Origin: an uncultured Deferribacterales bacterium
GTDB lineage: Bacteria > Chrysiogenota > Deferribacteres > Deferribacterales > Mucispirillaceae
Length of the DNA stretch: 64,000 bases
Assembly: GCA_947853665.1 (NCBI GenBank)
Contig: CANTXF010000002.1
Coordinates: forward strand, 1-64,000
Direction of reading: 5' to 3'
Under the pieces are notes generated by a model that was not told the origin of the DNA, made no database searches, and saw nothing but the letters and a program-made list of their open reading frames with translations. Made by a program: the position numbers and the translations under genes. Positions 1,328 through 62,426 of this stretch are shown here, one piece after another (the first letter of the stretch is position 1; the number at the start of each line of letters is the position of its first letter).

Positions 1328-1807
1328 TTATTAAAGCTGCTCCTGTTTTAGAATAATAACCTGCGGCTGCCGCCTTACACTGTCCGCAGCAAAATTACGG
1401 AAATTGCAGCGAAACGGCCTGCATCGGCAAGGAAGCTCTTGCCCTCCCTATCCAGAAGTCTCTTATAAGTACAGTTATAGTCCTGCTTTTCAAACCGGTT
1501 AACTTATCTCTTGACTTTTATCGGGGGGGGTAAACTGACTTATCATAATCATTAACGGACACATAGCCCCCGGAATAGCAGCTTTTATTTTCTTGATCGG
1601 CTCTGCGGCGTGGATTATCCGCGCATTACATTTGATTAAAAAATGAACAAAAGGAAATAAAACAGAAGATTCCGGCGGCAGCTTTTTACAGAACGCCCGC
1701 ATAAAACTTGCGCTTCCGGTAAGTACAGGTATAAAATATCAGAGCGGTTATCCGCTAATACGGACAATCGCCGTAAATATACAGCGCTTACTTTTACAGG
1801 AACGGCT
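1328..1807. other. Non-coding stretch with a degenerate repeat-like segment
   Basis: No convincing gene is present. Bases about 1350-1490 contain pieces resembling the dispersed palindromic repeat seen elsewhere in the window (for example TTACGGAAAT and GGCAAGG), but they are too degraded to call a copy. A promoter-like element with a G8 run follows at 1511-1536. Confidence 0.4.
1511..1536 (+). promoter_or_regulatory. Promoter-like element with a G8 run in the spacer
   Basis: TTGACT and TAAACT are separated by 14 bp, and the spacer contains eight consecutive G (1523-1530). Fourteen is short for sigma-70; eleven G would give the usual 17. The nearest downstream gene on this strand is the aldehyde dehydrogenase, about 270 bp away. 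A phase-variable role is inferred. Confidence 0.35.
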
Positions 1808-9279: not shown

Positions 9280-11298
9280 CTAAAATTTCTTTTTATCCAC
9301 GTCGGCAAGTATATCTTCAGAGATAGCCTTTACCGCTCCTGATATATCGTTTGTGCGTTCCGCTATGGCCACGCTGTTTTTATTTACCGCTTCCAGGTTG
9401 GACAAGGCTTCGTGTATATACTCTATGCCTTCCGTCTCATTTTTAACGGACACGTTTATATCGTTGATGCCCTGAACGAGAACGGCTACGTTTTTTTCTA
9501 TATCTTCCAGGGATTTATCCGTCCTTTCAGCCAATTTTCTGACTTCGTCCGCAACTACCGCAAACCCCCTTCCCTGCTCTCCGGCCCTTGCCGCTTCTAT
9601 AGACGCGTTTAACGCGAGGAGATTAGTCTGCTCCGCTATATCCCTGATCATTCCGACTATATTTTTAATATCGGCCGCCTGTAAGGCAACATCTCCGGCT
9701 TTACCGGAAACGCCGTTCATGGTTCCGGAAATAGCGCTTACCGCTTTAGACGACCTTTCAATGGAATCCGCCTGAGACTGCGTCCCGGCAGCAAGCTGCG
9801 CCATGGATTCCTGCAGCTCGTCGGTTTTTTCGGACAGGCGCCGGACGTAATCCAGCGAAGAAGAGAGCATTTTTCTTATTTCGCCGCCCAGCATATTGGC
9901 GGCCGCCTCTATCCGGCCTCCCGCATCCGTAACTTCCGCCGAAAAATCGAGATTTATGTAAGCGTCAAACACCCTGTTAAGCTCGTTAAGATCGGTTCCG
10001 ACGGAGCTTGAAATAAATCTGATCAGTTCGTTAATAGAATCTTTCATGGAGTTTAGCTGAGGATTGCCGCTGCCTAAAGATATTTGCCTGTCAAAATAAC
10101 CTTTTTTTGCGTGTTCTATCACATCCAGGGTCTCTTTTAACAGCTTTGCGTCCCGCTCCATATCAAAGGTCGTTTTCTCAACGTCGCTGTTTATAGCCCT
10201 CGCCATATCGCCTATTTCATCGTTTCCAGAAACGGATATAGGTTCCGGAATTTTTTCGGTCTCGCGGTTTATAAAGCGGAAAAAACTGTTAAGCCCCGCG
10301 TGTATTACCGGAAGCCCCCTTAAATAAAACTTAACCAGAGAAGCGATAGTTATCATGCTGGCGATCATAAACACCACCGCCAGGGCTATCTGCTGGAGAA
10401 GAAGCCTGTCAAACTGCGGCTCATAGTCAGAAACGGCGTTTGTAGAGCAGGCGAGCCAGCCGTAATCGCCGGAGCGCATGCACATCGCTATACGGTCATC
10501 GCCGTTAAAATCGTATTTTATCATCCGGCTGTATTCGTCCGTCCGGCCGCCCAACGCGTTAACGAAGCCGTCGATAACGGGCTGGTACGCCGTATCCTTA
10601 TTCATTATAAGCTCCCGGTCCTGAGAGGCTACAACGTAATCTTCCTTATCCAGCAGAAGGATATTGCTTGTCTCCGACGATTTCAGGGACGCTATCACTT
10701 TCTGAATATCGTCGAGAAAAATATTTGCCCCTATCACACCTGCGATTTTACCGTCCACAACTACCGGAGCGTATGCTGTGATGATAAGCTTTTTGGTGGT
10801 AATATCCTCATAAGGCCTGGAAAACCCAGCGTCCCCCCCCCGCATGCTCGCCTCTTTATACCACTGCCTGGTGCGCGAATCGAAACCATCGTCGGCAGCG
10901 TTCAGCCTGTACGGCCTGTTGCCTGAAATCGTATCGGTTTTTATAAGCCGCCCGTCGTCCCCATAACCGATAAAAAGAGCGTCCACGGAAGAACCCATAA
11001 AAGAAAAGCGTATAAGCTCCTCCATCCGCTCGTCGCTGAAAACGGCCTTAGAATCAGCAGCGGCGGCGGCAATCCGGCGAACCTCATCCAGACGCACCCC
11101 GAAATAGCTGTCTATGTAGGCCAGTACGGACTGTACAGTTTCCCGCTTGCCGTAAGTAATGGAGTCCAGTATGGCGTATTTAGAGCTGGTATAATTCAGG
11201 AAAGTAAAAAAGGTATATCCGAAAATAAGCAAAACGAATAATACGGCGGCTATTTTCTTTACTACCGTGGTTTTTAAAAATAAAGACCTGTTAAACAC
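9280..11298 (-). CDS. Methyl-accepting chemotaxis protein with dCache sensor
   Basis: This 672-residue transmembrane chemoreceptor has a first membrane helix at about 14-36 and a periplasmic double Cache ligand-binding region at about 40-295, including the [12 protein letters not shown] motif. A second helix follows at about 305-325, then a HAMP-like linker to about 400. The cytoplasmic signalling domain (about 500-672) carries the conserved hairpin tip [20 protein letters not shown]. It starts with GTG behind GGGAGGT. The ligand is unknown. A run of nine G within the coding strand, at about residue 152, makes it a candidate for slipped-strand frameshifting. Confidence 0.93.
10833..10841. repeat. 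G9/C9 run inside the chemoreceptor coding sequence
   Basis: Nine consecutive C on the plus strand (G9 in the gene) encode Gly-Gly within the periplasmic sensor domain at about residue 152. The present length keeps the frame open; a change by one base would truncate the protein before the second membrane helix. Confidence 0.75.
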
Positions 11299-39144: not shown

Positions 39145-39184
39145 TAAAGAATATCCCGCCGCAGTCGGCGGAAGGATAAAATAA

Positions 39185-39410
39185 GGCGGCTATCCCCCAG
39201 GGCAGACGGTTACGGAAGATATTTTTATACAGGCTCCGGGAGCCAAAAATATTTATAATAAGACCTGCAAGGCAAACTTAAACGTTTGCCCCTTTTAGGA
39301 CATGGCCCTATCAAACGCTTCGGGCAGGATTATCCGCCGCCCAGGAGCAAACCGCAGTATTATAAATAGCTTACATAATTTTATATTAATCTGCGTAAGG
39401 GTACGGCTGT
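39185..39410. repeat. Palindromic intergenic repeat, copy A
   Basis: About 226 bp whose two ends are imperfect inverted copies: GGCTATCCCC followed by GCAGACGGTTACGG on the left, and TCTGCGTAAGGGTACGGC on the right. The interior contains AAGACCTGCAAGGCAAACTT and a CAAACGCTTCGGG block shared with copy B at 60854. It has no open reading frame of note and lies between two tRNA genes. Confidence 0.75.
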
Positions 39411-40346: not shown

Positions 40347-42242
40347 ATGAAAAACAACCTTTCCGACAGCGTAAAGAATCTGCTGAACAGTTCGCGTCTC
40401 GCGGCGGTAATAACCGACGGAAATTTCAGCCGCGTATGGAATAACAGAGCTTATGAAAAAAAGTACCTGCCTTTTACCGACGCGGCGGGTTTTTCGCGCC
40501 AGTTTCCCCAATTCAGCGCGGACGAGATAGAAGCCCTTGCCAAAAGCCCGGCGGGAAGCAGCATAAAAAAAGAAAAAACGACCGTCCTGAAATCCGGTAT
40601 TAAAAACGCCGGCACGTTCATGCTTACCGTTTTTGACGACGATCTTTTTAACGATTCAGAAAGCGTCCCCTATAAAAATATTTTCGATAATTCCGCAAGG
40701 CCCATGATTATTCTCGAATGTCCGGGCGGAGCCGTTAGGGACGTAAACGCAGCGTTCTCCTCCCTCTGCGGCGTACCGGCGGAGCATATACGCACAGTAT
40801 CAGCGCGGGATCTGCCCATTTTGCGGGAAAGCGACGGTTTTAAAAACTATTTCGCGGCCAAAACTCCCTATAAAGAGCCTTTCCGCGTGTCTTTCACCGA
40901 CGCGGGAGACGAAAAGCGTTTTTTCAAGGTATATCCCTCCGCTCCGGAAAACGGCCTTATCCTGTTTGAAATGGAGGATGAATCCACCCCCCCCCGAAAA
41001 AGTACCCTATACACCGGGGAAGTTTCCAGGCCGTCCCTTACGGAAGGCGGAAAAAAGACGGAGGCAGACGTGCTGGACTCCCTGCGCAGCCTGATAATAG
41101 TTTTCGATAAGGACGGAGAGCTTTCGCAGTGCAACAGGGCCTTTCTCGATTTTTTCATGTGCGGCTCTCTTGAAGACTTTAAAAACAGATTCGGCTCCAT
41201 TGAGAAGCTTTTTATAAACGAATACGGCTTTATAAACGAATCCTGCGGAAAATTCTGGTTCAGAAAAGTGGCCGAAAATACGCTTACGGAATATAAGCTC
41301 GTAATACGTAACGAGCGCGACGGCAGGGAGCGTATATTTTTCGTAAGCGTAAGCCTCGTATCGCAGGAGGACTCGTCCTACGCGGCCGTTCTTTCCGATA
41401 TTACGGAAACCGTGCAGACGACCCTTGCCCTTAAAGACGCCAACTCGCTGCTCCTGATGTATAACGAGAGCATAAAATCCGAGATGGATAATAATCTCGG
41501 GCTTCTGGCCCAGCAGACAAAGCTCGCCATGATGGGAGAGATGATAGGCATAATAACCCACCAGTGGAAACAGCCTCTGAACGCCATAGGGCTTATAGCC
41601 CAGAACATAGAGGTAAGTCTTGAGGAAGACGAAGCTATCGACAGGCAGGAAATAAAGGATATGACCGGCTCCATAATGAAGCACGTAATCGCCATGGGCG
41701 AAACCGTGGATAATTTCAGAAATTTCTTCAAAAACGCCAGCGCGCCTAAATTGTTTAACCTGCATAACGCGATAGATTCCGCCATGATGCTTTTGCAGCC
41801 CGTTCTGAAAAAAGCGGCCGTCAGCGTTAATATAAACAAGCCCGAAAAGTACGACGGCCTTATGCTGCGCGGCTCCGCCAACGAATTCAAGCAGGTGCTT
41901 CTCAATATAATAATAAACTCGAAAGACGCCATAGGGGCAAAAATAATCAAAGGCGAAGCGGAGCCGGGCAGCGGCCTTGTGGCAATAAACATAGAAAGGC
42001 GCGGCGATAACATACTTATAAACATAAAAGACAACGGCACGGGGCTTAGCCCGGACACCATAAAAAACATATTCAATATGCAGTATACCACAAAAGGCGA
42101 AGGCGGCACCGGTATAGGCATGTATATGTCCGAAATGATAATTAAAAAAATGAGCGGCAGGATATGGGCGGAAAACTGGGATGCGGGAGCGTCCGTATCG
42201 ATAGAGCTGCCGGTTCAGAGCGACCCGGAACCTAAACCGTGA
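40347..42242 (+). CDS. PAS-domain sensor histidine kinase
   Basis: The 631-residue soluble kinase has two or three PAS-like domains (about 5-70, 105-210 and 240-355), then a dimerisation/phosphoacceptor helix with GEMIGIITHQWKQPLN (His at about 407) and a HATPase domain. The HATPase domain carries N-box EFKQVLLNIIINSKDAI, G1 DNGTGL and G2 GEGGTGIGMYM. The HQWKQPLN H-box is typical of NtrB-like kinases in related bacteria. A run of nine C in the coding strand (about residue 214) could slip and switch the gene off. The deacetylase gene overlaps its stop (GTGA). The cognate regulator is not adjacent. Confidence 0.9.
   Translation: MKNNLSDSVKNLLNSSRLAAVITDGNFSRVWNNRAYEKKYLPFTDAAGFSRQFPQFSADEIEALAKSPAGSSIKKEKTTVLKSGIKNAGTFMLTVFDDDLFNDSESVPYKNIFDNSARPMIILECPGGAVRDVNAAFSSLCGVPAEHIRTVSARDLPILRESDGFKNYFAAKTPYKEPFRVSFTDAGDEKRFFKVYPSAPENGLILFEMEDESTPPRKSTLYTGEVSRPSLTEGGKKTEADVLDSLRSLIIVFDKDGELSQCNRAFLDFFMCGSLEDFKNRFGSIEKLFINEYGFINESCGKFWFRKVAENTLTEYKLVIRNERDGRERIFFVSVSLVSQEDSSYAAVLSDITETVQTTLALKDANSLLLMYNESIKSEMDNNLGLLAQQTKLAMMGEMIGIITHQWKQPLNAIGLIAQNIEVSLEEDEAIDRQEIKDMTGSIMKHVIAMGETVDNFRNFFKNASAPKLFNLHNAIDSAMMLLQPVLKKAAVSVNINKPEKYDGLMLRGSANEFKQVLLNIIINSKDAIGAKIIKGEAEPGSGLVAINIERRGDNILINIKDNGTGLSPDTIKNIFNMQYTTKGEGGTGIGMYMSEMIIKKMSGRIWAENWDAGASVSIELPVQSDPEPKP
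40987..40995. repeat. C9 run inside the sensor kinase coding sequence
   Basis: Nine consecutive C encode a Thr-Pro-Pro stretch between PAS domains of the kinase. A length change of one base would frameshift the gene before its catalytic domains. Confidence 0.75.
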
Positions 42243-50554: not shown

Positions 50555-50556
50555 CG

Positions 50557-50787
50557 TAGCTATACCTTTACGCAGATCGATGTAAAGTTACGGAAGGTAT
50601 TTATAATACGGCGGCTTGCTCATATCAACGGATAATAATACTAAAAGCCTCTGGCAAGGCGCTGTCTGAAGGGGCAATGCCCTTTTAGTCTGCCTTTGCC
50701 GCGCAAGCATTATTATGAATAGTTTTGACGATGCGTAGCATTATTATGATTATTTTCCATAACTGTCCGCGTTAAGGGGCAGCCGCC
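50557..50787. repeat. Palindromic intergenic repeat, copy C
   Basis: About 231 bp with inverted ends (TAGCTATACCTTTACGCAGAT on the left; the right end, AACTGTCCGCGTTAAGGGGC, matches when reverse-complemented). The interior CTGGCAAGGCGCTGTCTGAA and GGGGCAATGCCCCTTTT-like blocks are shared with copies A and B. It fills the mnmA-yajQ gap and starts 2 bp after the mnmA stop, where it may also act as terminator. Confidence 0.75.
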
Positions 50788-51386: not shown

Positions 51387-52214
51387 CTATACAAGATCGC
51401 TTTTCTTAAAGAAAACGTAACCCATAACGGCGAATATCACGCCCAAAACAGCCGGATAAACAAGCGAATATACGGCGCAGCCGGACCGGCCGAGAGTATC
51501 CAGTATAAAATATGAAGCCGGGCCGGTAACGGAAAGCACCGGGTCGAAAAGGCATATCGCTCCTATTCTGAAAACCTGCACGGGGTTAAGCATAGCGGCG
51601 GCGAATATTACGTTTTCCGGCATCATGCTTTTTATCATGAACCCTATCAACGCTATATCTATAAAAGCTATAAGAAAGAGCCACACGAAAAAAGCGGCTC
51701 CCACGGCAAGCTCCTGGCTTCTGACCCATGAGGATATAAAAAAGCCCACCCCGAGAAAGGCAAGCGCGCTGCACACAAGAAGCCCGGCGTAAAGCAGAAA
51801 GAGCCCCGCGGGAATATCCGCCCCCTTTACGGCGCCTATTATGAGAGCAAGCAGCATGGAAAGGATAAGAGGCGCGGACACAACTATAAAACGGCCCAGA
51901 AACTTGCCGAAATAATACGACCTCAGGGACACGGGGAAGGAAAGCAGATATTCCAGCACGTTGCTTTCCCTGTCTCCAGAAATGGTGCGCACCGTGGTAA
52001 CGAGAACGAACACGGGCATTATTATATTGCAGGCCTGTATAAAAACCAGAAGCCCCCGCGTAAGGCCCGTAAACCCCATAACGCGGCCCTCCGCCACGCC
52101 GGACATGAAAATCATGGCCGTCATTATCATAAAAACGGCGGCGTACCCCATAAACCAGCGGGACCGCAGGGAGCCCAGCAGATCAAGCCTCAGCACAAGG
52201 AGCATATCTTTCAT
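51387..52214 (-). CDS. nosY: Nitrous oxide reductase maturation ABC permease NosY
   Basis: The 275-residue permease has about six membrane helices and the family blocks RSRWFMGYA (about 17), GLTRGLLVFIQACNIIMPVFVLV (about 49-71) and SGDRESNVLEYLLSFPVS (about 80-97). It forms the NosDFY complex with NosF and NosD that supports assembly of the copper-sulfide CuZ site of NosZ. It overlaps nosL by 4 bp and is the last gene of the nos cluster. In the Wolinella arrangement nosY precedes nosL; here the order is reversed. Confidence 0.92.
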   Translation of the reverse strand: MKDMLLVLRLDLLGSLRSRWFMGYAAVFMIMTAMIFMSGVAEGRVMGFTGLTRGLLVFIQACNIIMPVFVLVTTVRTISGDRESNVLEYLLSFPVSLRSYYFGKFLGRFIVVSAPLILSMLLALIIGAVKGADIPAGLFLLYAGLLVCSALAFLGVGFFISSWVRSQELAVGAAFFVWLFLIAFIDIALIGFMIKSMMPENVIFAAAMLNPVQVFRIGAICLFDPVLSVTGPASYFILDTLGRSGCAVYSLVYPAVLGVIFAVMGYVFFKKSDLV

Positions 52215-52693
52215 TTCAGCTCCGTTACGCCGGATTTTTTCATGGCCCGCTCGTTTTTTATATCGAGAAAGAGCTGCACGGCCTGCTCGTAGGTTAATAT
52301 TTCCTTGCCCTCCGGCACGGCGCTTTCATCGGAAAAGGCCCCTACCCCGAAAGACATTGGGGTCACGAAGGGGCGGGCAAGCACAGCCTTCCTGCCGCTA
52401 AGCCATTTGCCGCTTACCGCGTCGGTAAAATACACCACGGCCCCGTCTTTCCATGCGAAGCCTTTTTCCTCAAGCCATAAAAGGGCGCAGCCCAAATCGT
52501 CGAAAAAGAAATGCTCCCCCGTTTCCGGGTTTACTATCTGGGCGGAATGCAGCCTGTCGCTTACCTGCATCACGCAGCGCTCGCATACTTCCCTGTCGAA
52601 TTTTACTTCCGCAGGCTCCAGACTTACGGAGCTTTTGCAGCCCGCGGCAAGGAACACAACAGCCGCTGCCGCGGCGAATCTAAATTTCTTCAT
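52211..52693 (-). CDS. nosL: NosL copper chaperone lipoprotein
   Basis: The 160-residue lipoprotein has a signal ending in a lipobox (VVFLAAGC, Cys at about 19). The NosL fold follows, with the CERCVMQVSD copper-binding motif (about 37) and the EHFFFDDLGCALLWLEEKG block. It is thought to deliver Cu(I) for CuZ assembly. It overlaps nosF by 14 bp upstream and nosY by 4 bp downstream. Confidence 0.93.
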   Translation of the reverse strand: MKKFRFAAAAAVVFLAAGCKSSVSLEPAEVKFDREVCERCVMQVSDRLHSAQIVNPETGEHFFFDDLGCALLWLEEKGFAWKDGAVVYFTDAVSGKWLSGRKAVLARPFVTPMSFGVGAFSDESAVPEGKEILTYEQAVQLFLDIKNERAMKKSGVTELK

Positions 52694-53318
52694 CCTTTAC
52701 TACCCTCCCCATGTCAAGCTCCACGGCCCGCGAAGCAAGCCCTGAAAATTCTTCCAGCCTGTGGCTGATAAAAATAAAAGTACGGCCTCCTCCCGCCTCA
52801 TCCAGCAGGGCGCGGAAAGTCCCCCGCCCTTTTATATCCAGATTGGCCGTAGGCTCGTCGAATATTATGGTTTTCGTACCTCTTGCGAAAGCAACGCTTA
52901 TAAGCACCTTCTGCTTCATCCCGCCGGACAGCTTGTGGAAAGCCTTGCCCATGTGGGGCTCTATATCAAGCTCCAGCCTGCGGCAGTTTTCCGCTACGGT
53001 TTTTTTATCGAAGCCGGATATTCCGGCGGAATAATCTATAAGCTCGCCTATGGTAAATTTGAGAGGCGGCGGAAGCTGGGGCACGAAGCTGACGCTTTTA
53101 AGGGCGGAAACCCTGTCCTGCCAGGGAGATACGCCGTCTATGGAAACGGAGCCGGATGAAGGCATATATTCTCCGAGGATACAGCGGATAAGCGTCGTTT
53201 TTCCGGCGCCGTTCCTGCCCATGAGCATAAGCTTTTCGCCGTCCCCCACGGACAGATTGACCCCGTTCAGGACTTCCTGCCCTTTAAAGGATTTACGCAG
53301 TTCTTTCACGATTATCAT
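52680..53318 (-). CDS. nosF: Nitrous oxide reductase maturation ABC ATPase NosF
   Basis: The 212-residue ATPase has intact Walker A (GRNGAGKTT), signature (LSGGMKQKV), Walker B (IIFDEPTANLD) and switch histidine (SHRLEE). It powers the NosDFY complex. It is somewhat shorter than the roughly 300-residue NosF of clade I denitrifiers, lacking much of the C-terminal extension, which fits the clade II type. It follows nosH by 4 bp. Confidence 0.92.
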   Translation of the reverse strand: MIIVKELRKSFKGQEVLNGVNLSVGDGEKLMLMGRNGAGKTTLIRCILGEYMPSSGSVSIDGVSPWQDRVSALKSVSFVPQLPPPLKFTIGELIDYSAGISGFDKKTVAENCRRLELDIEPHMGKAFHKLSGGMKQKVLISVAFARGTKTIIFDEPTANLDIKGRGTFRALLDEAGGGRTFIFISHRLEEFSGLASRAVELDMGRVVKDEEI

Positions 53319-53322
53319 AATT

Positions 53323-54132
53323 TCACACCAGATTTTTAAAACGGCTTACGTAGCTCATGGAGCCTTTAGGGCAGGCCTCTATGCATCTGCCGCATAAAAT
53401 GCAGGCGGAGCCTTTTATATAGACGGGCTTGCCCTCCTCCGTTTTCATGTTTTTAAAATTCAGTATGGAAGGCTCTATACAGACGGAAGCGCACCTGCCG
53501 CAGTTATCGCAGTCCCCGTCGCGGGCTATCCTGCCGACGGAGACGTAATTAAGCAGGCCGTAGGCCGAGCCTATCGGGCAAACGCTCCTGCACCAGAAAC
53601 GGCGGGCGAAAAAAACCTCCGCAAGAAACACCAGAAGAACCCATATCCCGGCGGCGCCGGCCCCGTATATGAGAAAACGGCTCAATATACCAACCACGTT
53701 GAAGATCTCGAACACAAGAAGCCCGGTAACGACGGAAAGCCCGGCCCACAAAGCGAAAAACCAGTACCTGCCAACGGGAAGCGAAAGACCGCCTTTTATT
53801 ATTTTCTTTCTCACGAGGAAAAAATGCAGTTTTTCCCCCAGCTCGCTTAAAAGCCCGTACGGGCACACCCAGGAGCAGAACGCCCTGCCGCCTGCGGCCA
53901 GATAAAAAAGAACGATCGTAACAGTGCCTATTATCAGGTTGGCCGGAACGGAATTGTGGGCCGCTATTACCTGAAGCGTAACGAACGGGTCTATAAGGTG
54001 AAAGCCTATGAACCGGGAGCCGGAAAGGGAGCCTTCGAGTATCTGTATATCCGCCCTGTACGATATTATAAAAAACAGGGAGACAAATATTACCGAAATG
54101 CGCCTCAAAGGGGTTATCCAGCGTTTTTTCAT
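53323..54132 (-). CDS. nosH: NosH, NapH-like membrane Fe-S protein
   Basis: The 269-residue quinol-oxidising-type membrane protein has four or more helices and the CSWVCPYGLLSE and CRSVCPIGSAYG cysteine motifs facing the cytoplasm. Two C-terminal [4Fe-4S] ferredoxin motifs follow (CDNCGRCASVC and CILCGRCIEACP). With the ferredoxin-like NosG and the NosC cytochromes it is thought to carry electrons from menaquinol toward NosZ in clade II organisms. It lies between nosC2 and nosF. Confidence 0.9.
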   Translation of the reverse strand: MKKRWITPLRRISVIFVSLFFIISYRADIQILEGSLSGSRFIGFHLIDPFVTLQVIAAHNSVPANLIIGTVTIVLFYLAAGGRAFCSWVCPYGLLSELGEKLHFFLVRKKIIKGGLSLPVGRYWFFALWAGLSVVTGLLVFEIFNVVGILSRFLIYGAGAAGIWVLLVFLAEVFFARRFWCRSVCPIGSAYGLLNYVSVGRIARDGDCDNCGRCASVCIEPSILNFKNMKTEEGKPVYIKGSACILCGRCIEACPKGSMSYVSRFKNLV

Positions 54133-54143
54133 GGAAGCCGCCG

Positions 54144-54593
54144 CTATTTGAAGGAGGATATTTCGTCCGCAAGCATTTCAAGCTGCTCGACGGAGGTATT
54201 TTCCAGAAGCCCTTTCATAAGAGTGTTCGGCACCTGGCCGTTTTTATATTTCATAAGGGCGGCCATATTGTACTGCCTGTCCCTGCCGGCTATGGAAGGG
54301 CCTACCGGGCCTTTGCCGTCCCTGCCGTGGCAGGAGGAGCATTTTACTATATAAAGCCTGCTAAGGCCGGATTTGCCCGCTTCGCGCCTCATTTCCTCAA
54401 GGGCGAGAGCCTGTTCGTCCATCTGGGGGGAAGCCGGTTTTTCCGGGGCGGAAGCGGCGGCGGGGGCTGGCGCAGCGGCTTTCTGCGTTTCAGCCTCCTG
54501 AGGAACGCCTGACGGCGACCCCTTTGAAAACATATATGCAAATAAAGCTGCGGCCGCGGCCACCGCTATAATACCTGCTGTCCTTCTGCTCAT
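54144..54593 (-). CDS. nosC2: Membrane-anchored monoheme cytochrome c (NosC2-type)
   Basis: The 149-residue protein has an N-terminal membrane anchor (about 7-24), an alanine/proline-rich linker (about 28-60) and a class I cytochrome c domain with one heme site CSSCH (about 87) and a downstream methionine candidate (NTLMKGL). It would pass electrons within the nos pathway. It overlaps nosC1 by 4 bp. Confidence 0.88.
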   Translation of the reverse strand: MSRRTAGIIAVAAAAALFAYMFSKGSPSGVPQEAETQKAAAPAPAAASAPEKPASPQMDEQALALEEMRREAGKSGLSRLYIVKCSSCHGRDGKGPVGPSIAGRDRQYNMAALMKYKNGQVPNTLMKGLLENTSVEQLEMLADEISSFK

Positions 54594-55132
54594 CTGGCTT
54601 TCTCCTTTCTTATCTCTTCGTTAAAGGCGGCTATATCGTCCGCGATAAAGCGTATCTCCTCATCGGTCATTTTAGACACGAGAACCTTCATAAGCACGTT
54701 TTCTTCCCTGTCGGTCCTGTATTTTATTATCATGTCGTAAACCTGCTCCCCGCTTTTATCAAGCAGAGACGGCCCTATTACCCCGTTGCCGTAATCGTCG
54801 TGGCAGGCTGAGCATTTTACGATAAACTCCTTGCTGAGCCTTTTCATCATAAGCGATTTATGTATGGATTCGTAAGGGTTGTTCCTTACTACGACGTGGG
54901 CGCCTATCTCCTTAGTAAGAGGCGTTTCCTCCCCGTCCGGCGCGTATCTTACGGCGTATTCCCCCGTTACAGTATAGGAAATAAACGGGCTTACGTTATC
55001 CTTATTGCTCCCGCCGCCTGAAACCACGGTTATCTCCCCGCTTTTTTCAGGCAAGGGGGCTTCCGCGCCCTTTTGCTCGCTCCCGGAGCAGGCGGCAGCA
55101 AAAACGCATATTATCAGACAAAGAAATTTCAT
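54590..55132 (-). CDS. nosC1: Monoheme cytochrome c lipoprotein (NosC1-type)
   Basis: This protein of about 180 residues begins at the ATG at 55132, which follows GGAGAG; an in-frame TTG four codons upstream is less likely. It has a lipoprotein signal with lipobox VFAAAC, then a cytochrome c domain with CSACH and a distal methionine candidate (ENVLMKVL). It resembles the NosC2 domain, suggesting an old duplication. Together they link the NosGH module to NosZ in clade II clusters. Confidence 0.88.
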   Translation of the reverse strand: MKFLCLIICVFAAACSGSEQKGAEAPLPEKSGEITVVSGGGSNKDNVSPFISYTVTGEYAVRYAPDGEETPLTKEIGAHVVVRNNPYESIHKSLMMKRLSKEFIVKCSACHDDYGNGVIGPSLLDKSGEQVYDMIIKYRTDREENVLMKVLVSKMTDEEIRFIADDIAAFNEEIRKEKAR

Positions 55133-55145
55133 ATTGCTCTCCAAA

Positions 55146-55835
55146 TCACTTAGGCTCTATTACAAAAACATTGCTTTCCGCCGGGCACAGCTCCAGGCAC
55201 ACGCCGCAGCCCACGCATTTTTCGCGTATTTCGGGGGCGTACCGCTTTTCCCCCGTCAGAGCTATGGCCGCGTCCCTGTCAGGATACGGGCACATATCGC
55301 GGCAGACGGTGCAGGCTTTGCCTGAAAAGGCGCGCAGTTTTTCCGCCAGTTCTTTTTCCCGCTCGCCGGAGGTTCCGTGGGCTATGAGCCTGTTTATCAT
55401 ATCCTCCGTAACGGTTTCCCCCTTCATGCCGAGGCAGTTTTCAGGCCTTACGACCCTGGCCTTGCCCATATCCACATATTCCGCGTCGGACACGCTGCTG
55501 TCCAGCGCCCCGGACGGGCAGGAAAGCACGCAGGGCAGAAGGTCGCAAAGATAGCAAGCCCGCTCCTCCGGTATTATTACCGGGGTGCCCGCGGCGGCGC
55601 CCTTATTTATATCGAGCAGCTTTACCGAGCGGTAAGGGCACACCTGCACGCACTGGCCGCATTTTATGCACGTTCCTAAAAATTTGCGCTCGTTTTCCGC
55701 ACCGGGAGGGCGCAGGAATTTTTCCTCCGGCTTCAGCAAAGGCGCACAGGCCCTGCCTGCGGCAAGAAGCCCGGCCAGGCCGCAGGTAAAAAGCGCCGTT
55801 TTGGCGAAAGAGCGGCGGTTCATTTTTTTACTCAC
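55146..55835 (-). CDS. nosG: NosG, NapG/MauM-like periplasmic ferredoxin
   Basis: The 229-residue protein has a twin-arginine signal (NRRSFAKTALF, about 6-16) and four cysteine clusters typical of NapG-like [4Fe-4S] proteins: CIKCGQCVQVCP, CYLCDLLPCVLSCP, CTVCRDMCP and CVGCGVCLELCP. It would be exported folded and act with the NosH membrane protein in electron transfer. It overlaps nosD by 8 bp. Confidence 0.92.
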   Translation of the reverse strand: MSKKMNRRSFAKTALFTCGLAGLLAAGRACAPLLKPEEKFLRPPGAENERKFLGTCIKCGQCVQVCPYRSVKLLDINKGAAAGTPVIIPEERACYLCDLLPCVLSCPSGALDSSVSDAEYVDMGKARVVRPENCLGMKGETVTEDMINRLIAHGTSGEREKELAEKLRAFSGKACTVCRDMCPYPDRDAAIALTGEKRYAPEIREKCVGCGVCLELCPAESNVFVIEPK

Positions 55836-57060
55836 TTTTTACATCCTCCGCCTTTAATCTCGGCATGGTATCGACGGCAAGAGTCTCCGGCTCGGAAAAC
55901 GGCAGGAGCTTCATAAGAAAGTTAAGCAGGCTCATTACCGGCGAACCGTAAAAAAACTTTAAAGCGGGAACACGCTGCATTATTTTATCCGCATAGGCAA
56001 GGTTTTCGTAAGGAGTGTCCCCGTAGCCGTCTCCATTTCTGTCGAAGCCTTCGTATTCGTCCCAGTAATTTCTGTACCATGAATTTACGCTTAAATCGGA
56101 GGAGGGCGTGTCGTTCGATACGGAATCTATATTGCCGCCGAAAACGTTGTCCTCGAAAACGCTGCCTAAAATCACTCCGTGGAGCTGGATACCCGTCGTG
56201 TTATACAGTATCCGGTTGCGCATAAATTTATTGACCGTGCCCGGCTGATACGGGGACTGGTCCAGATAAAACCCTCTGGCGTTATACATAAGGACATTGT
56301 CCTCCGCTATGCAGTCCGAAACCTCCTTAAAGCCTATGCCTATGCCGAAAGGCCCGGTGGAGCTGCGCACGGTGTTGCCCGTAATACGGCTGCCGTGGCT
56401 GTACATAAGGAAAATCCCTACGGAATTATTTTCAAAAACGTTGTCCGTAACGAAATTTCTGTCCGCGTACATAAAATGGACGGAATACCTGGAGCCGCCG
56501 ATGTAGTTTTTCTCTATCCTGTTGGCGGAGGAATACCAGAAAACCATATCCCTTATCCCCTCCATCCTGTTGCTTCTTATGGTGTTGGAGTGGCTGTACC
56601 ACAGCCTTATGCCGTCCCCCTTGAGGCCGAGGGAAAAATCTTTGGAGCGTATGTCGTTATTTTCAATGCGGCCCCGGTTGGAGCCTTCGAAATTGACCCC
56701 GAAAAGACAGTCCCGCATATTGTTGCCGGAAACTATCACGTTATCGGCGTTCTTAACGGCGACGCAGGCGTCGCTGGCTTCGTGGCTTTCGCCGCTGCCC
56801 ATTATCCTGAGCCCCTGGACGGAAGCCCCGGAAGCGGTAACGGTTATCACGCTTCCTTTGCCGCTGCCCTTTATTACGGCGTTATCGCCCCTGCCCTTTA
56901 AGGTAACGGCCTTATTAACGGTAACGGGGCCTTCGTAAAGGCCGTCGCCCAATATTATAACGGAGCCTTCCTCCGCGCCGTCTACGGCTTCCTGGAGCGA
57001 GGCGGCGCAGACGGGCAAAGCGGAAAGCAGGACAAGCGCAAAGGCGGCGGGAACCTTCAT
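55828..57060 (-). CDS. nosD: NosD, periplasmic CuZ-site maturation protein
   Basis: The 410-residue exported protein has a Sec signal (about 1-19) and a right-handed beta-helix of carbohydrate-binding/sugar-hydrolase-type repeats (NNDIRSKDFSLGLKGDGIRLWYSHSN and following N-rich turns, about 90-340). It is the periplasmic part of NosDFY and needed for CuZ assembly. It overlaps nosB by 4 bp and nosG by 8 bp. Confidence 0.93.
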   Translation of the reverse strand: MKVPAAFALVLLSALPVCAASLQEAVDGAEEGSVIILGDGLYEGPVTVNKAVTLKGRGDNAVIKGSGKGSVITVTASGASVQGLRIMGSGESHEASDACVAVKNADNVIVSGNNMRDCLFGVNFEGSNRGRIENNDIRSKDFSLGLKGDGIRLWYSHSNTIRSNRMEGIRDMVFWYSSANRIEKNYIGGSRYSVHFMYADRNFVTDNVFENNSVGIFLMYSHGSRITGNTVRSSTGPFGIGIGFKEVSDCIAEDNVLMYNARGFYLDQSPYQPGTVNKFMRNRILYNTTGIQLHGVILGSVFEDNVFGGNIDSVSNDTPSSDLSVNSWYRNYWDEYEGFDRNGDGYGDTPYENLAYADKIMQRVPALKFFYGSPVMSLLNFLMKLLPFSEPETLAVDTMPRLKAEDVKSE

Positions 57061-57902: not shown

Positions 57903-60488
57903 TTAGAAAAGGTCGGCGTTCTGATCTATCCATTTCATGTATTCGATCATGTCTTTAATTTCGCCGTCCTTCATATTCTGGTTAGGCATCCTAAGGTTAA
58001 AGTAGTTTATAAGCTCTTTAACGTAAGGCTCGTCATATTTGGAAGCAGGGTTTTTGGTAAATTCGAAAACCCATTGCTCGCTGGTTCTGTCTATGGCTCC
58101 CGTAAGGTCCGGGCCGGAGCTTACCTGGCCTATTACGTGGCAGCCGTTGCATCCGCCGGTAAGGTAAGCGGCTTCGCCTCTGGACGCAGCTTCTGACATG
58201 GGGGAAGCAAGCATTTTGGAAAGGCGCGCCTTAGCCCTGAGGCCCACGTCGGCGGTTTTTACCATATACTGCCATACCTGGTTTTCCCAGAGGATAGCCT
58301 GGTCAAGGTCGCCTTTCTTATAGGCGGCGTCGGCCTTGGCCTTAACGTCCTTGATATTGCCGTACTGGTTCAGGGCGTCCGTCACCAGGGCTTTTATTTC
58401 AGGATATTTGTCATATCCTTTATCCGTAAGGAATTTAACTACGGACTGTATAACCGCGTCGGTAGCTTCGTTAGTCGCCAGTATTTTCTTATACTCCGCT
58501 TCAAGCTGTTCCTTGCTCAGCTTCTGGAGGCTCATCTTTTTAATGTCCTCATACTTTTTGTTGGGGTCCTTCACAAAAAGATAGCCCATCATTTCAAGGT
58601 GGAGAGCGGAGCAGAATTCCGTGCAGTAATACGGAAACACGCCTTCCTCATCGGCCACGAAGGTAACGGAAGCCGTTTTTCCCGGCTCTATGGAAGCGTG
58701 GACGTTAAGAGCGTCTATGGCGAATCCGTGGGTCTCGTCCTGGGCCCTTTCTAGGCTGGTTATGTGGATGGTTACCTTATCGCCTTTATTTACGGTTATG
58801 TGTTCCGGGTTTATGTGGGAACGAACCATAGTGGCGTAAACGGTAACGTTGTTGCCTTTGCGCTCAACGCGCTCCTGTCCGGCAAGGGTAACGGCCGGGT
58901 GAGGTTTGCCGGTACGGCTGTTTGTGCCCATGTCGTAAGTTGCCTGAGGTTTCAGCTTATCGGCGGCAATGGATACTACGTCGTGAGGCTCGCCCAGAGG
59001 TATGGGCATATCGTAGATAAGCTCCATTTTAGGCCCGGTAATATCTATAAGCTGGTGGTTCTGCGGATGCAGAGGGCCTACCGGGTTGAACCTGTCTATG
59101 GAGAGCTTGTCGAGGGAAAGGGCGTATTTGCCTTTAGGCTTGGAGGATTTGCCTTCCATAGTGTCAAGGTGGCCTATATTGTAGTGAACGTTTATACGGT
59201 CCAGAACTTTAAGGTTTTTGTAATCCCATTTAACTATCTGGGAGTCCACATAAAGAGACGTATAAATTATGCCGTCCTCAGGAACGAAAGAGCTGTGCAG
59301 AGGTCCGAGGCCCAGCTCAACCTGACCGTGGAGGGCTTTTTTCATATCTATTATGGGTATACCGTAAGGGTCCTTGCCGATAAAATCCTTTTTGTCTATA
59401 AGGGCTTTTATTTTGGCAAAATCATAAACGGAAGCGTGGGTATCCAGCTTGCCGCCTACAACTATATATTTGCCGTCCGGGGTAACGTCCACGCCGTGGG
59501 GGGACTTGGGCTCCGGTATAAGGAAAAGAGCGCCAGCTTTTACGGCCGCGTCTATGGTCACTACGCGGTGGCCGTTGATCACCTTATAGTTTTTCTTGTC
59601 CTGAGCCAGCTTTTCAAGGATTTTCCAGTTGAATACGTGCAGGTAGTCGTTGTCGTTTCGGCTCATGCCGGCTTCAAAAGGAGGAAGGCCCTTTTCTATA
59701 CCGCCGGTATACATTTCGGAGTTAAAGGAGTTTATAAAGCCCCAGCCGTCGGACGGGCCTTTGCCCGCGTCGGAAAGGTCCTGCATATAGGGAGGCAGTT
59801 CCAGAGTAAAGGATTTATCCACGTCTATGCGGCCTTTTGTTTTATCGAACTTCCAGAGAGTAACCGCCCCGCGGAAAACGTCCGCGTAGTTTTCTATGGG
59901 GTAATAGTTGTTGTCGAGAGGCGCGGCGTATTGGCTGGCCTCCATAACGTACTCGGAGTTAGGCGTAACGAACGCCCCGCCGTGTTCGCTTTTTATTACC
60001 GGGTTGGTAACTATCTGCACAGTTTCAAAATCGTGGAGGTTTATAACCGCCAGACGGGGGTTGGCTTTATCGTTGATAAAGAGATAATCCCCGGTATATT
60101 CGCCGTTTTTCTCGGTAAACGCCGGGTGGTGGGAATCGCCCCAGGTTATATCCCTGCCGCGGATCTTGCCCTGCTCGAGAACGGCTTTGGACTCGTCGTC
60201 ATAGCCGTAACCCTGCCACGGCTCGGGAGTGAACACGCCTATGTACTTATAAATACGCATGGAAGGCACGCCGTAAACTATGACCTGCCCGGACTGGCCG
60301 CCGGAAGAAAAGACTATGTATTCGTCTTTCCTGCCCGAAGGCTGGTAAGTTTTTGCCGCCGCAATAACATCTTTTTCGGAAAGGTTTCTTTCCTTCATGA
60401 TGTCCTGCAGGGTGTCCGCCGCAACGGCCTGAACGGCGAAAGCCGCAAGCACAGCCAAAGAAACGGCACATTTCTTCAGAAAATTCAT
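57903..60488 (-). CDS. nosZ: Nitrous oxide reductase, clade II with C-terminal cytochrome c
   Basis: The 861-residue periplasmic enzyme reduces N2O to N2. It has a Sec, not Tat, signal (about 1-23), the seven-bladed propeller that holds the tetranuclear CuZ site (about 50-550; histidines in GDSHHPAFT, SEHGGAF and SPHGVDVTPDG), and a cupredoxin CuA domain. The CuA ligands are C622, C626, H630 and M633 in CTEFCSALHLEMM. A C-terminal extension carries a heme c site CNGCH (C780), as in the cNosZ of Wolinella. Sec export, length and the fused cytochrome place it in clade II. It is the first gene of the nos operon. Confidence 0.97.
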   Translation of the reverse strand: MNFLKKCAVSLAVLAAFAVQAVAADTLQDIMKERNLSEKDVIAAAKTYQPSGRKDEYIVFSSGGQSGQVIVYGVPSMRIYKYIGVFTPEPWQGYGYDDESKAVLEQGKIRGRDITWGDSHHPAFTEKNGEYTGDYLFINDKANPRLAVINLHDFETVQIVTNPVIKSEHGGAFVTPNSEYVMEASQYAAPLDNNYYPIENYADVFRGAVTLWKFDKTKGRIDVDKSFTLELPPYMQDLSDAGKGPSDGWGFINSFNSEMYTGGIEKGLPPFEAGMSRNDNDYLHVFNWKILEKLAQDKKNYKVINGHRVVTIDAAVKAGALFLIPEPKSPHGVDVTPDGKYIVVGGKLDTHASVYDFAKIKALIDKKDFIGKDPYGIPIIDMKKALHGQVELGLGPLHSSFVPEDGIIYTSLYVDSQIVKWDYKNLKVLDRINVHYNIGHLDTMEGKSSKPKGKYALSLDKLSIDRFNPVGPLHPQNHQLIDITGPKMELIYDMPIPLGEPHDVVSIAADKLKPQATYDMGTNSRTGKPHPAVTLAGQERVERKGNNVTVYATMVRSHINPEHITVNKGDKVTIHITSLERAQDETHGFAIDALNVHASIEPGKTASVTFVADEEGVFPYYCTEFCSALHLEMMGYLFVKDPNKKYEDIKKMSLQKLSKEQLEAEYKKILATNEATDAVIQSVVKFLTDKGYDKYPEIKALVTDALNQYGNIKDVKAKADAAYKKGDLDQAILWENQVWQYMVKTADVGLRAKARLSKMLASPMSEAASRGEAAYLTGGCNGCHVIGQVSSGPDLTGAIDRTSEQWVFEFTKNPASKYDEPYVKELINYFNLRMPNQNMKDGEIKDMIEYMKWIDQNADLF

Positions 60489-60573
60489 TTTGTCCTCCTC
60501 ATTTATTGCACGCCGCCCACGGTAAGGCGGCTAAATGCCTTATCTGCAAAAAATAACTTAGGGCACGGACGAT

Positions 60574-60615
60574 ATATTAGGACAATAAAAAATTAATTAA
60601 ATTGACATATATCAA
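60574..60615 (-). promoter_or_regulatory. Class II FNR/CRP-type promoter of the nos operon
   Basis: On the minus strand TTGATATATGTCAA (60602-60615) matches the FNR consensus TTGAT-N4-ATCAA at nine of ten positions. A TAATAT -10 box (60574-60579) follows after exactly 22 bp, the spacing of class II sites centred at -41.5. It lies about 90-125 bp upstream of nosZ. Confidence 0.75.
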
Positions 60616-60646
60616 TTTACGAAGAATTTTTTATAACTATATTAGA

Positions 60647-60674
60647 ATAATATTCGGGGGGGGGAATTTGTCAA
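60647..60674 (-). promoter_or_regulatory. Second nos promoter with a C9 run in its spacer
   Basis: On the minus strand TTGACA and TATTAT are separated by 16 bp, and the spacer contains nine consecutive C (plus-strand G at 60656-60664). One added base would give the optimal 17-bp spacer. It lies about 150 bp upstream of nosZ. Confidence 0.6.
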
Positions 60675-60853
60675 TGTTTTTCAAAAAGATACGGCATCAG
60701 TCCTTAAATGATACGGTGAAGTAAACAGAATTTTTAAAAATTTTAACACACGGGAAAAACGCGCGAAAAAACGGCATAATAAAACGCCGCAACAGCCGGC
60801 GCGGCAAACCGCGCCGCAATCCAAGATAAAAAACTAATCTCATTAAAATGACT

Positions 60854-61085
60854 GGCAGCTATCCCCTAACGCAGATAGTTACGGCAAATAATTATAATAA
60901 TGCTCATTAGGCTTCAAAAATATTCATAATAAGACCTTCTCTGGCAAGGCAAACTCCGGGGCAAAAGCCCCTTTAGACAGTGCTTTGGCAAACGCTTTCG
61001 GTCTTATTATTCACAGCCCTAGAGCAAGCCGCCGTATTATAAATATTTCCCATAACTTTATTAATCTGCGTAAGGGCATAGCTGC
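60854..61085. repeat. Palindromic intergenic repeat, copy B
   Basis: About 232 bp with inverted ends: GCAGCTATCCCCTAACGCAG on the left, and a right end reading ATCTGCGTAAGGGCATAGC. Interior blocks TCTGGCAAGGCAAACTCC and TTTGGCAAACGCTTTCGG are shared with the other copies. No gene lies within it. Confidence 0.8.
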
Positions 61086-61182
61086 GAAATACTAATAAAC
61101 AGTTTCGCTAAAAAATCATCGTAAAATTCATTGATAGATATCCCTTTCTAATTTATACTTAATAATATATATTTTTCCCGGC

Positions 61183-61245
61183 CATATCCTTACCCTGACT
61201 GGCGTGAAGTTACTGAAAATATTTATCACGGGGCGGCTTGCGGCG
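61183..61245. repeat. Partial arm of the palindromic repeat
   Basis: CCATATCCTTACCCTG, GAAGTTACTGAAAATATTTAT and GGGCGGCTTGC match in order the left arm of copy C. The rest of the element is missing or too degraded to see. Confidence 0.45.
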
Positions 61246-61388: not shown

Positions 61389-62426
61389 ATGAAAAGCTAT
61401 ATAATATGGAACAATAAGGGCGGCATAGGCAAAACCATGCTGTCCTTTCTGCTGTCTACCGGATATGCCTTGGAGCATCCTGACGAAAATACCGTCGTTA
61501 TCGACATGTGCCCTCAGGCAAATATTTCTCAAGTGCTGCTTGGAGGAACTGATAATATCAATTCATACTTAGAGGTCGTGGAAAATAACAACACAATCGC
61601 CGATTATTTTATAAGCCGTTATCAAAAATCGCCTTATACCATGACAGGCAGCGAAACGTCATTCCTGCTCAATGATATTTCTTCACATAACGCCAATGTA
61701 CCGGATAATCTGTATCTTGTTTCCGGAAACAGCAAACTTGAATTGCTGAATACGATAATAGACAGGTTTGCCGCTCCCGGCGGATTCAGAGGCATAGACG
61801 AATGGAAGGCGATATACAGCTGGATAAACGACTTAAAAAAAGCAATAACGAATAAAATCGGGGAAAACACCTCTTTCTTTATAGATACGAACCCAAGTTT
61901 CGCAAACTATACTAAAATGGCAATTTTATCAGCGGACCGCCTGATTATACCATGTTTTGCAGATGTCGGCTCTTTGCTCGCACTGGAAAATCTTATGTTC
62001 TTTTTATATAACGTCAGGGATGAAAAAGCCTTCGGAAGTATCGACAACAATTTTTATGAACTGGCTAAAGAACATGGAATGTCTATTCCTATGATATACA
62101 TGGTCGTAGTGGGAAGAAGCACGCAATACAATAATAAAGCTGCTGCTGCCTTTAAGCATCTCGAAGAAAAAATTATGAGCAGAATTGAAGAACTTAAGAA
62201 AAAACATAACGGAAAGATCTTTATAAACTCATCTTTCCCGATAGTTCAGCAACTGCGGGATTTAAACTCCGCCGCCCCTTTGATTAACGTCCGGGGAGAA
62301 CTTTTAAACAACCTTAAAGGCGGCCAGGCTACCGGCCTGCATACGAAACAGGGCACGGAAATGATGGTGCCTACAAATATTAAAGAATTTAAAGACGCGG
62401 TTAACAATCTCGTAAAACTTTTATGA
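61389..62426 (+). CDS. Orphan ParA-family ATPase
   Basis: The 345-residue protein has the deviant Walker A motif NKGGIGKT (about 9-16), a VVIDMCPQANIS A-prime motif (about 37-48) and a FFIDTNPSFANYT Walker B-like segment (about 160). It therefore belongs to the ParA/MinD family of DNA- or membrane-associated switches. No parB or other partitioning gene is adjacent. It is AT-richer than the nos genes, and its neighbours are small hypothetical and regulator genes, so it may be the remnant of an integrated plasmid or a defence-related island. An AGGAGC site precedes the ATG. Confidence 0.8.
   Translation: MKSYIIWNNKGGIGKTMLSFLLSTGYALEHPDENTVVIDMCPQANISQVLLGGTDNINSYLEVVENNNTIADYFISRYQKSPYTMTGSETSFLLNDISSHNANVPDNLYLVSGNSKLELLNTIIDRFAAPGGFRGIDEWKAIYSWINDLKKAITNKIGENTSFFIDTNPSFANYTKMAILSADRLIIPCFADVGSLLALENLMFFLYNVRDEKAFGSIDNNFYELAKEHGMSIPMIYMVVVGRSTQYNNKAAAAFKHLEEKIMSRIEELKKKHNGKIFINSSFPIVQQLRDLNSAAPLINVRGELLNNLKGGQATGLHTKQGTEMMVPTNIKEFKDAVNNLVKLL

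Follow-up and report, generated by a model that had tools for sequence, protein, structure and literature searches.

Two promoters ahead of a Mucispirillaceae nos operon: a conserved Crp/Fnr-family site and a C9 spacer tract that suggests phase variation

The nos operon of an uncultured Deferribacterales bacterium raises the question of whether nitrous-oxide (N2O) respiration may be phase-variable as well as regulated. The operon lies in a stretch of 64,000 nucleotides (nt), here called the window, which covers positions 1 to 64,000 of contig CANTXF010000002.1 (assembly GCA_947853665.1). The genome measures 2.43 Mb in 68 contigs and is about 97% complete. Two promoters are predicted upstream of nosZ, a distal one with nine C in its spacer and a proximal one with a Crp/Fnr-family palindrome. 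The genomic context gives good support to the proposal that N2O respiration varies in phase, but the proposal is unproven.

The operon is a complete clade II nos operon, with nosZ as its first gene (start codon ATG at 60488) and nosY as its last, ending at 51387 (Table 1). It exhibits the composition of a clade II nosZ locus, namely a Sec-type NosZ with a NosB/D/G/C/H/F/Y/L operon, in which nosB and nosL are assigned by position only. The nosZ gene is 84-85% identical to nosZ of two Mucispirillum genomes, and the window genome appears to belong to the Mucispirillaceae, in a genus other than Mucispirillum.

The distal promoter had been described in the original prediction as TTGACA-N16-TATTAT with nine C, and re-reading the minus strand from 60674 to 60647 gives the identical sequence. 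Toward nosZ the order of its parts is TTGACA, AATT, nine C (60664-60656), GAA and TATTAT. With 11 of 12 consensus bases, it ranks first among the 8 promoter candidates in 60000-61200 (2.6 are expected from shuffles), and its transcription would be expected to start near 60640. A promoter was regarded as a candidate for phase variation where a tract of at least 8 lies in a -35/-10 spacer of 14-18 nt; the C9 tract in its 16-nt spacer has this arrangement. The proximal promoter is composed of TTGATATATGTCAA, then 22 nt, then TAATAT, as claimed earlier for an FNR-like site exactly 22 from its -10 box, and the coordinates and base counts given for both promoters are correct base for base. A class II Crp/Fnr site is centred near -41.5, which corresponds to 22 nt between site and -10 box, and this spacing is found in the window and in two relatives, G010 and G011. 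The arrangement as two promoters stands, and so does the class II geometry. The palindrome, in class II position for the proximal promoter, would lie at about +32 relative to the distal start. No known RNA family was matched in the leader and upstream region of nosZ.

The window genome has 73 C/G runs of at least 8, the nos tract among them, and only 11 runs of exactly 7. In random sequence each run length is several-fold rarer than the preceding length. Here, 60 of the 73 runs have a length of nine, nine of eight, three of ten and one of eleven. The genus Mucispirillum (g3) exhibits a like excess of long runs, with 49 against 5 in the complete genome G002, and the 46 runs fetched from this genome have lengths of 8 (6 runs), 9 (30), 10 (8) and 11 (2). 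Genus g2 of the Mucispirillaceae and most other Deferribacterales families are without the excess, and in most other Deferribacterales the balance is reversed. A chance origin of the tract was rejected on the length distribution, which recurs in another genus.

Promoter-spacer tracts were searched for as TTGAC and a -10 box matching at four or more positions, separated by a spacer of 13-18 nt that contains the run. Nine of the 73 tracts in the window genome and nine of the 46 in G002 are placed in this way, where random placement gives 0.1 each (P about 1e-14), and the tracts are thus both in excess of chance in the genome and clustered at promoters. The G002 promoters carry tracts of C8-C11 in spacers from 14 (C8) to 17 nt (C11), and those of the window genome mostly have C9 in a 15-nt spacer, with nos at 16. 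The nos promoter is therefore one of a family of promoters, with a 16-nt spacer that is within the range of that family. Several C-tract promoters are located 30-50 nt ahead of lipoproteins and other exported proteins. The apparent orthology of two C-tract promoters, L143 and L226, failed on protein comparison. A G8 at window 1523-1530 is found in a promoter-like site, TTGACT-N14-TAAACT, and an aldehyde dehydrogenase gene follows about 280 nt downstream.

The largest class of tracts is respiratory and consists of twelve proteins with a twin-arginine translocation (Tat) signal, in which the tract follows about 10-20 codons behind the signal. Eleven of the twelve match the molybdopterin oxidoreductase family PF00384, and the twelfth, L118, was placed among the reductase paralogues by its Tat signal and homology. 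An identity of these paralogues as lipoproteins was considered and overturned by the Pfam matches. In the assembly, six of the twelve reading frames are open and six close right after the tract, and G002 encodes three reductase paralogues with a tract at the same codons. The tract just behind the Tat signal of the paralogues is G9 or G10. An orthologous coding pair (L161/L215) has its tract at the same place, as C9 in one and C10 in the other. Putatively, the reductase set represents an electron-acceptor repertoire under phase variation. Tracts are also featured in genes for chemoreceptors, a histidine kinase, a GGDEF-EAL protein, a LuxR-type regulator, glycosyltransferases, an O-acyltransferase and a multihaem cytochrome. 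Within the window, C9 tracts in open frames occur at 40987-40995 and 10833-10841, in a histidine kinase and a chemoreceptor gene. At the level of sequence, this pattern of genes and tracts is a contingency-locus signature. Phase variability of nos is much better supported than the original prediction could tell, because its tract belongs to a set of C8-C11 spacer and coding tracts that crosses genera.

The proximal promoter is conserved beyond the window. In G011, nosZ is preceded by TTGATTTAAGTCAA, 22 nt and TATAAT, and in G010 by the same palindrome as in G011, a different 22 nt and TATAAT. Palindrome and gap length are thus kept in two other Mucispirillaceae nos promoters despite a diverged gap sequence, and the proximal element is real. 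Conserved spacing with a diverged spacer is what a class II Crp/Fnr promoter predicts. The same geometry is located ahead of nosZ in several Sulfurimonas-type and other genomes, so that the element is of a known kind. Among 39 named nosZ loci scanned, zero C/G runs of 7 or more were found in the 600 bp upstream of nosZ.

The original prediction had further attributed the proximal promoter to FNR and oxygen, a claim that fared less well. No [4Fe-4S] FNR was found, and the sole clear Crp-type regulator, with the single Pfam Crp helix-turn-helix match (PF00325) in the genome, is a protein of 213 aa encoded at C44:15429-16070. It contains zero cysteines, lacks the cluster cysteines of the FNR type and therefore cannot be a [4Fe-4S] FNR. 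Among solved structures, Pseudomonas DNR is the closest to it in sequence (3dkw, E 1.2e-19). The gene is divergent from hcp (PF03063), and TTGATACCGGTCAA is located between the two. This site is one of only three places in the 2.43-Mb genome with TTGAYNNNNRTCAA, and the nos site is another. Nearness to DNR, pairing with hcp and a site of its own in the shared promoter region together mark the C44 protein as DNR/HcpR-like. In the account of Rodionov et al. (PMC1274295), HcpR has TTGACnnnnGTCAA sites and is encoded divergently from hcp, and nosZ is preceded by DNR boxes. The locus resembles those DNR/HcpR/NnrR systems in its Crp/Fnr-type palindrome before nosZ, its cysteine-free DNR-like regulator and the hcp neighbour, and differs in having TTGAT...GTCAA half-sites combined with a C-tract promoter; its response to nitric oxide (NO) is a prediction. 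The third TTGAYNNNNRTCAA site (C26:13061-13074, L110) overlaps a promoter-like site, TTGACA-N17-TATAAA, upstream of a divergent cytochrome b-like gene.

The C44 regulator is probably the activator of the proximal nos promoter, and the FNR/oxygen label is probably wrong. A cysteine-free DNR-like regulator paired with hcp points to NO or nitrosative control, and either signal is probably more likely at this promoter than oxygen; NO as the regulator's own signal would follow from family resemblance. The two nosZ-bearing Mucispirillum genomes each encode one small regulator of this kind, orthologous to the C44 protein. Orthologues are also present in four Mucispirillum genomes without nosZ, so the regulator is not exclusive to nos; none is found in G002. 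A Crp-like regulator gene with many cysteines is located at C33:22355-22918, with a C8 tract (L139:2062-2069; C33:23061-23068) close behind the end of the gene.

Taken together, it is somewhat probable that the dual nos promoters combine a C44-activated class II proximal promoter with a sigma-70 distal promoter whose slipping C9 tract varies basal nos transcription. The proximal promoter would be induced when the cysteine-free DNR/HcpR-like C44 regulator is active, and the distal promoter would supply the basal level. During replication the C9 tract would slip through slipped-strand mispairing, and a subpopulation with other tract lengths would have a different basal nos level. Because its site is about 32 nt downstream of the predicted distal start, bound regulator could in addition obstruct polymerase that has started at the distal promoter. 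The nos operon would then form part of a larger set of respiratory genes with C tracts. The sequence anatomy, the conserved proximal geometry, the excess of tracts over the genome, their clustering at promoters and the open and closed coding frames are shown, whereas slippage, the activity of the distal promoter and the identity and signal of the regulator are points that we infer.

Several points weigh against this dual-promoter account. Neither Mucispirillum relative, G010 or G011, has the C9 promoter ahead of nosZ, and this promoter is thus unconserved at the locus. The 16-nt spacer is already permissive, and a one-base change may have a modest effect and not act as a switch. Run lengths are those of a draft-assembly consensus, and the pairing of the C44 regulator with the nos site is drawn only from its neighbourhood and the motif. 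As the genome is 97% complete, a [4Fe-4S] FNR could be encoded in the part that is missing.

Among the alternatives, the one that survives best, although we judge it unlikely, is that the proximal regulated promoter does all the work and that the distal one is weak and constitutive, with a tract length of no physiological effect on nos. The proximal geometry is indeed conserved in relatives without the C tract, whose nos control works without it, and a 16-nt spacer is functional in most sigma-70 promoters. However, the tract is found inside a near-consensus promoter (11/12), and promoters with such tracts form a family far beyond chance in two genera. Control of the proximal promoter by a true oxygen-sensing FNR, as originally proposed, is doubtful to a greater degree: the site matches FNR and DNR/HcpR boxes equally well and the FNR gene could be among those missing, but the single small regulator in each of the nosZ-bearing Mucispirillum genomes is again the orthologue of the C44 protein. 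It is very improbable that the C runs arose from mutation bias or assembly alone and have no regulatory meaning. Every run length is indeed taken from assemblies, and several tracts lie in plain intergenic DNA. However, the independent assemblies of two genera peak alike at 9, runs of 9 outnumber runs of 7, contrary to ordinary length decay, and tracts occur in promoter spacers and at matching codons of reductase paralogues and orthologues.

Table 1. Features of the nos locus and tract-bearing reductases
Feature	Position or loci	Strand	Basis
nosZ, clade II (Sec-type) nitrous-oxide reductase, C-terminal cytochrome c-like part, 861 aa	57903..60488	(-)	TIGR04246, 860.6 bits (cut-off 625)
nosB-like membrane protein, 257 aa	57057..57830	(-)	place in operon; no Pfam match
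nosD	55828..57060	(-)	PF05048
nosG-like 4Fe-4S protein	55146..55835	(-)	Fer4 families
nosC1-like c-type cytochrome	54590..55144	(-)	CSACH haem motif in open reading frame (ORF)
nosC2-like c-type cytochrome	54144..54593	(-)	CSSCH haem motif in ORF
nosH-like 4Fe-4S membrane protein	53323..54132	(-)	PF12801
nosF ABC ATPase	52680..53318	(-)	PF00005
nosL-like lipoprotein	52211..52693	(-)	lipoprotein-like start and operon place; no Pfam match
nosY ABC permease	51387..52214	(-)	PF12679
-35 hexamer TTGACA, distal nos promoter	60669..60674	(-)	consensus 6/6
C9 tract within 16-nt spacer, distal nos promoter	60656..60664	(-)	sequence
-10 hexamer TATTAT, distal nos promoter	60647..60652	(-)	consensus 5/6
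Crp/Fnr-family palindrome TTGATATATGTCAA	60602..60615	(-)	conserved in G010 and G011
-10 hexamer TAATAT, proximal nos promoter, 22 nt after palindrome	60574..60579	(-)	consensus 4/6
Shine-Dalgarno GAGGAGG of nosZ	60494..60500	(-)	sequence
Tract-bearing Tat reductases, window genome	L116, L117, L118, L133, L135, L146, L147, L149, L151, L154, L155, L156		
Tract-bearing Tat reductases, G002	L195, L203, L206		

Beyond the promoters, a ParA-like ATPase gene is located at window 61389-62426 and reads divergently from nos; the ORFs listed nearby include no ParB-like partner. A palindromic repeat of about 250 bp, dispersed over the genome, has inverted ends and is similar to a miniature inverted-repeat transposable element. 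It is found at window 60840-61095, 50555-50787 and 39177-39409, on C44 and on many other contigs. Its copies are 70-88% alike, and it exhibits a fold z-score of -6.5 without an Rfam match.

Homopolymeric C/G tracts between the -35 and -10 boxes are known from porA, opc and fetA of Neisseria, in which they set spacing and strength. The nos distal promoter has a C tract in the same place; unlike the Neisseria promoters it belongs to the Deferribacterota and to a respiratory operon, is followed by a second, regulated promoter and has a length variation that is predicted. In Campylobacter, contingency loci with G/C tracts of about 8-12 number in the tens and include surface-glycan genes among other variable genes. 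The window genome resembles Campylobacter in having tens of tracts of similar length and differs in that many are in respiratory reductases and promoters, in another phylum. For nos itself, loss by phase variation is reported in Azospirillum (Vial et al. 2006, as cited in PMC4250227), where N2O reduction was lost in variants of one strain; the title of the cited work names genomic architecture changes and not slippage of a promoter homopolymer (PMC4250227). The Azospirillum case is a precedent for the outcome and not for the mechanism proposed here. The open-access literature searched contained nothing on point for phase variation with Mucispirillum, Deferribacter or nitrous oxide reductase, and the term 'phase variation' is absent from the main text of the M. 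schaedleri genome paper.

A broader proposal, put forward tentatively and with confidence slightly short of even, is that Mucispirillaceae phase-vary their anaerobic respiration, some twelve reductases by reading frame and nos by promoter spacing, with an NO-type regulator as the conditional layer. M. schaedleri is culturable and a member of defined mouse floras, which makes part of this prediction, the tract variation in reductase genes and C-tract promoters, testable in existing M. schaedleri isolates and reads. Phase variation is mostly known for the surface structures of pathogens. If the proposal is true, phase variation in a lineage of gut commensals would reach central energy metabolism, the N2O-removing enzyme included, and a clonal gut population would hedge over electron acceptors.
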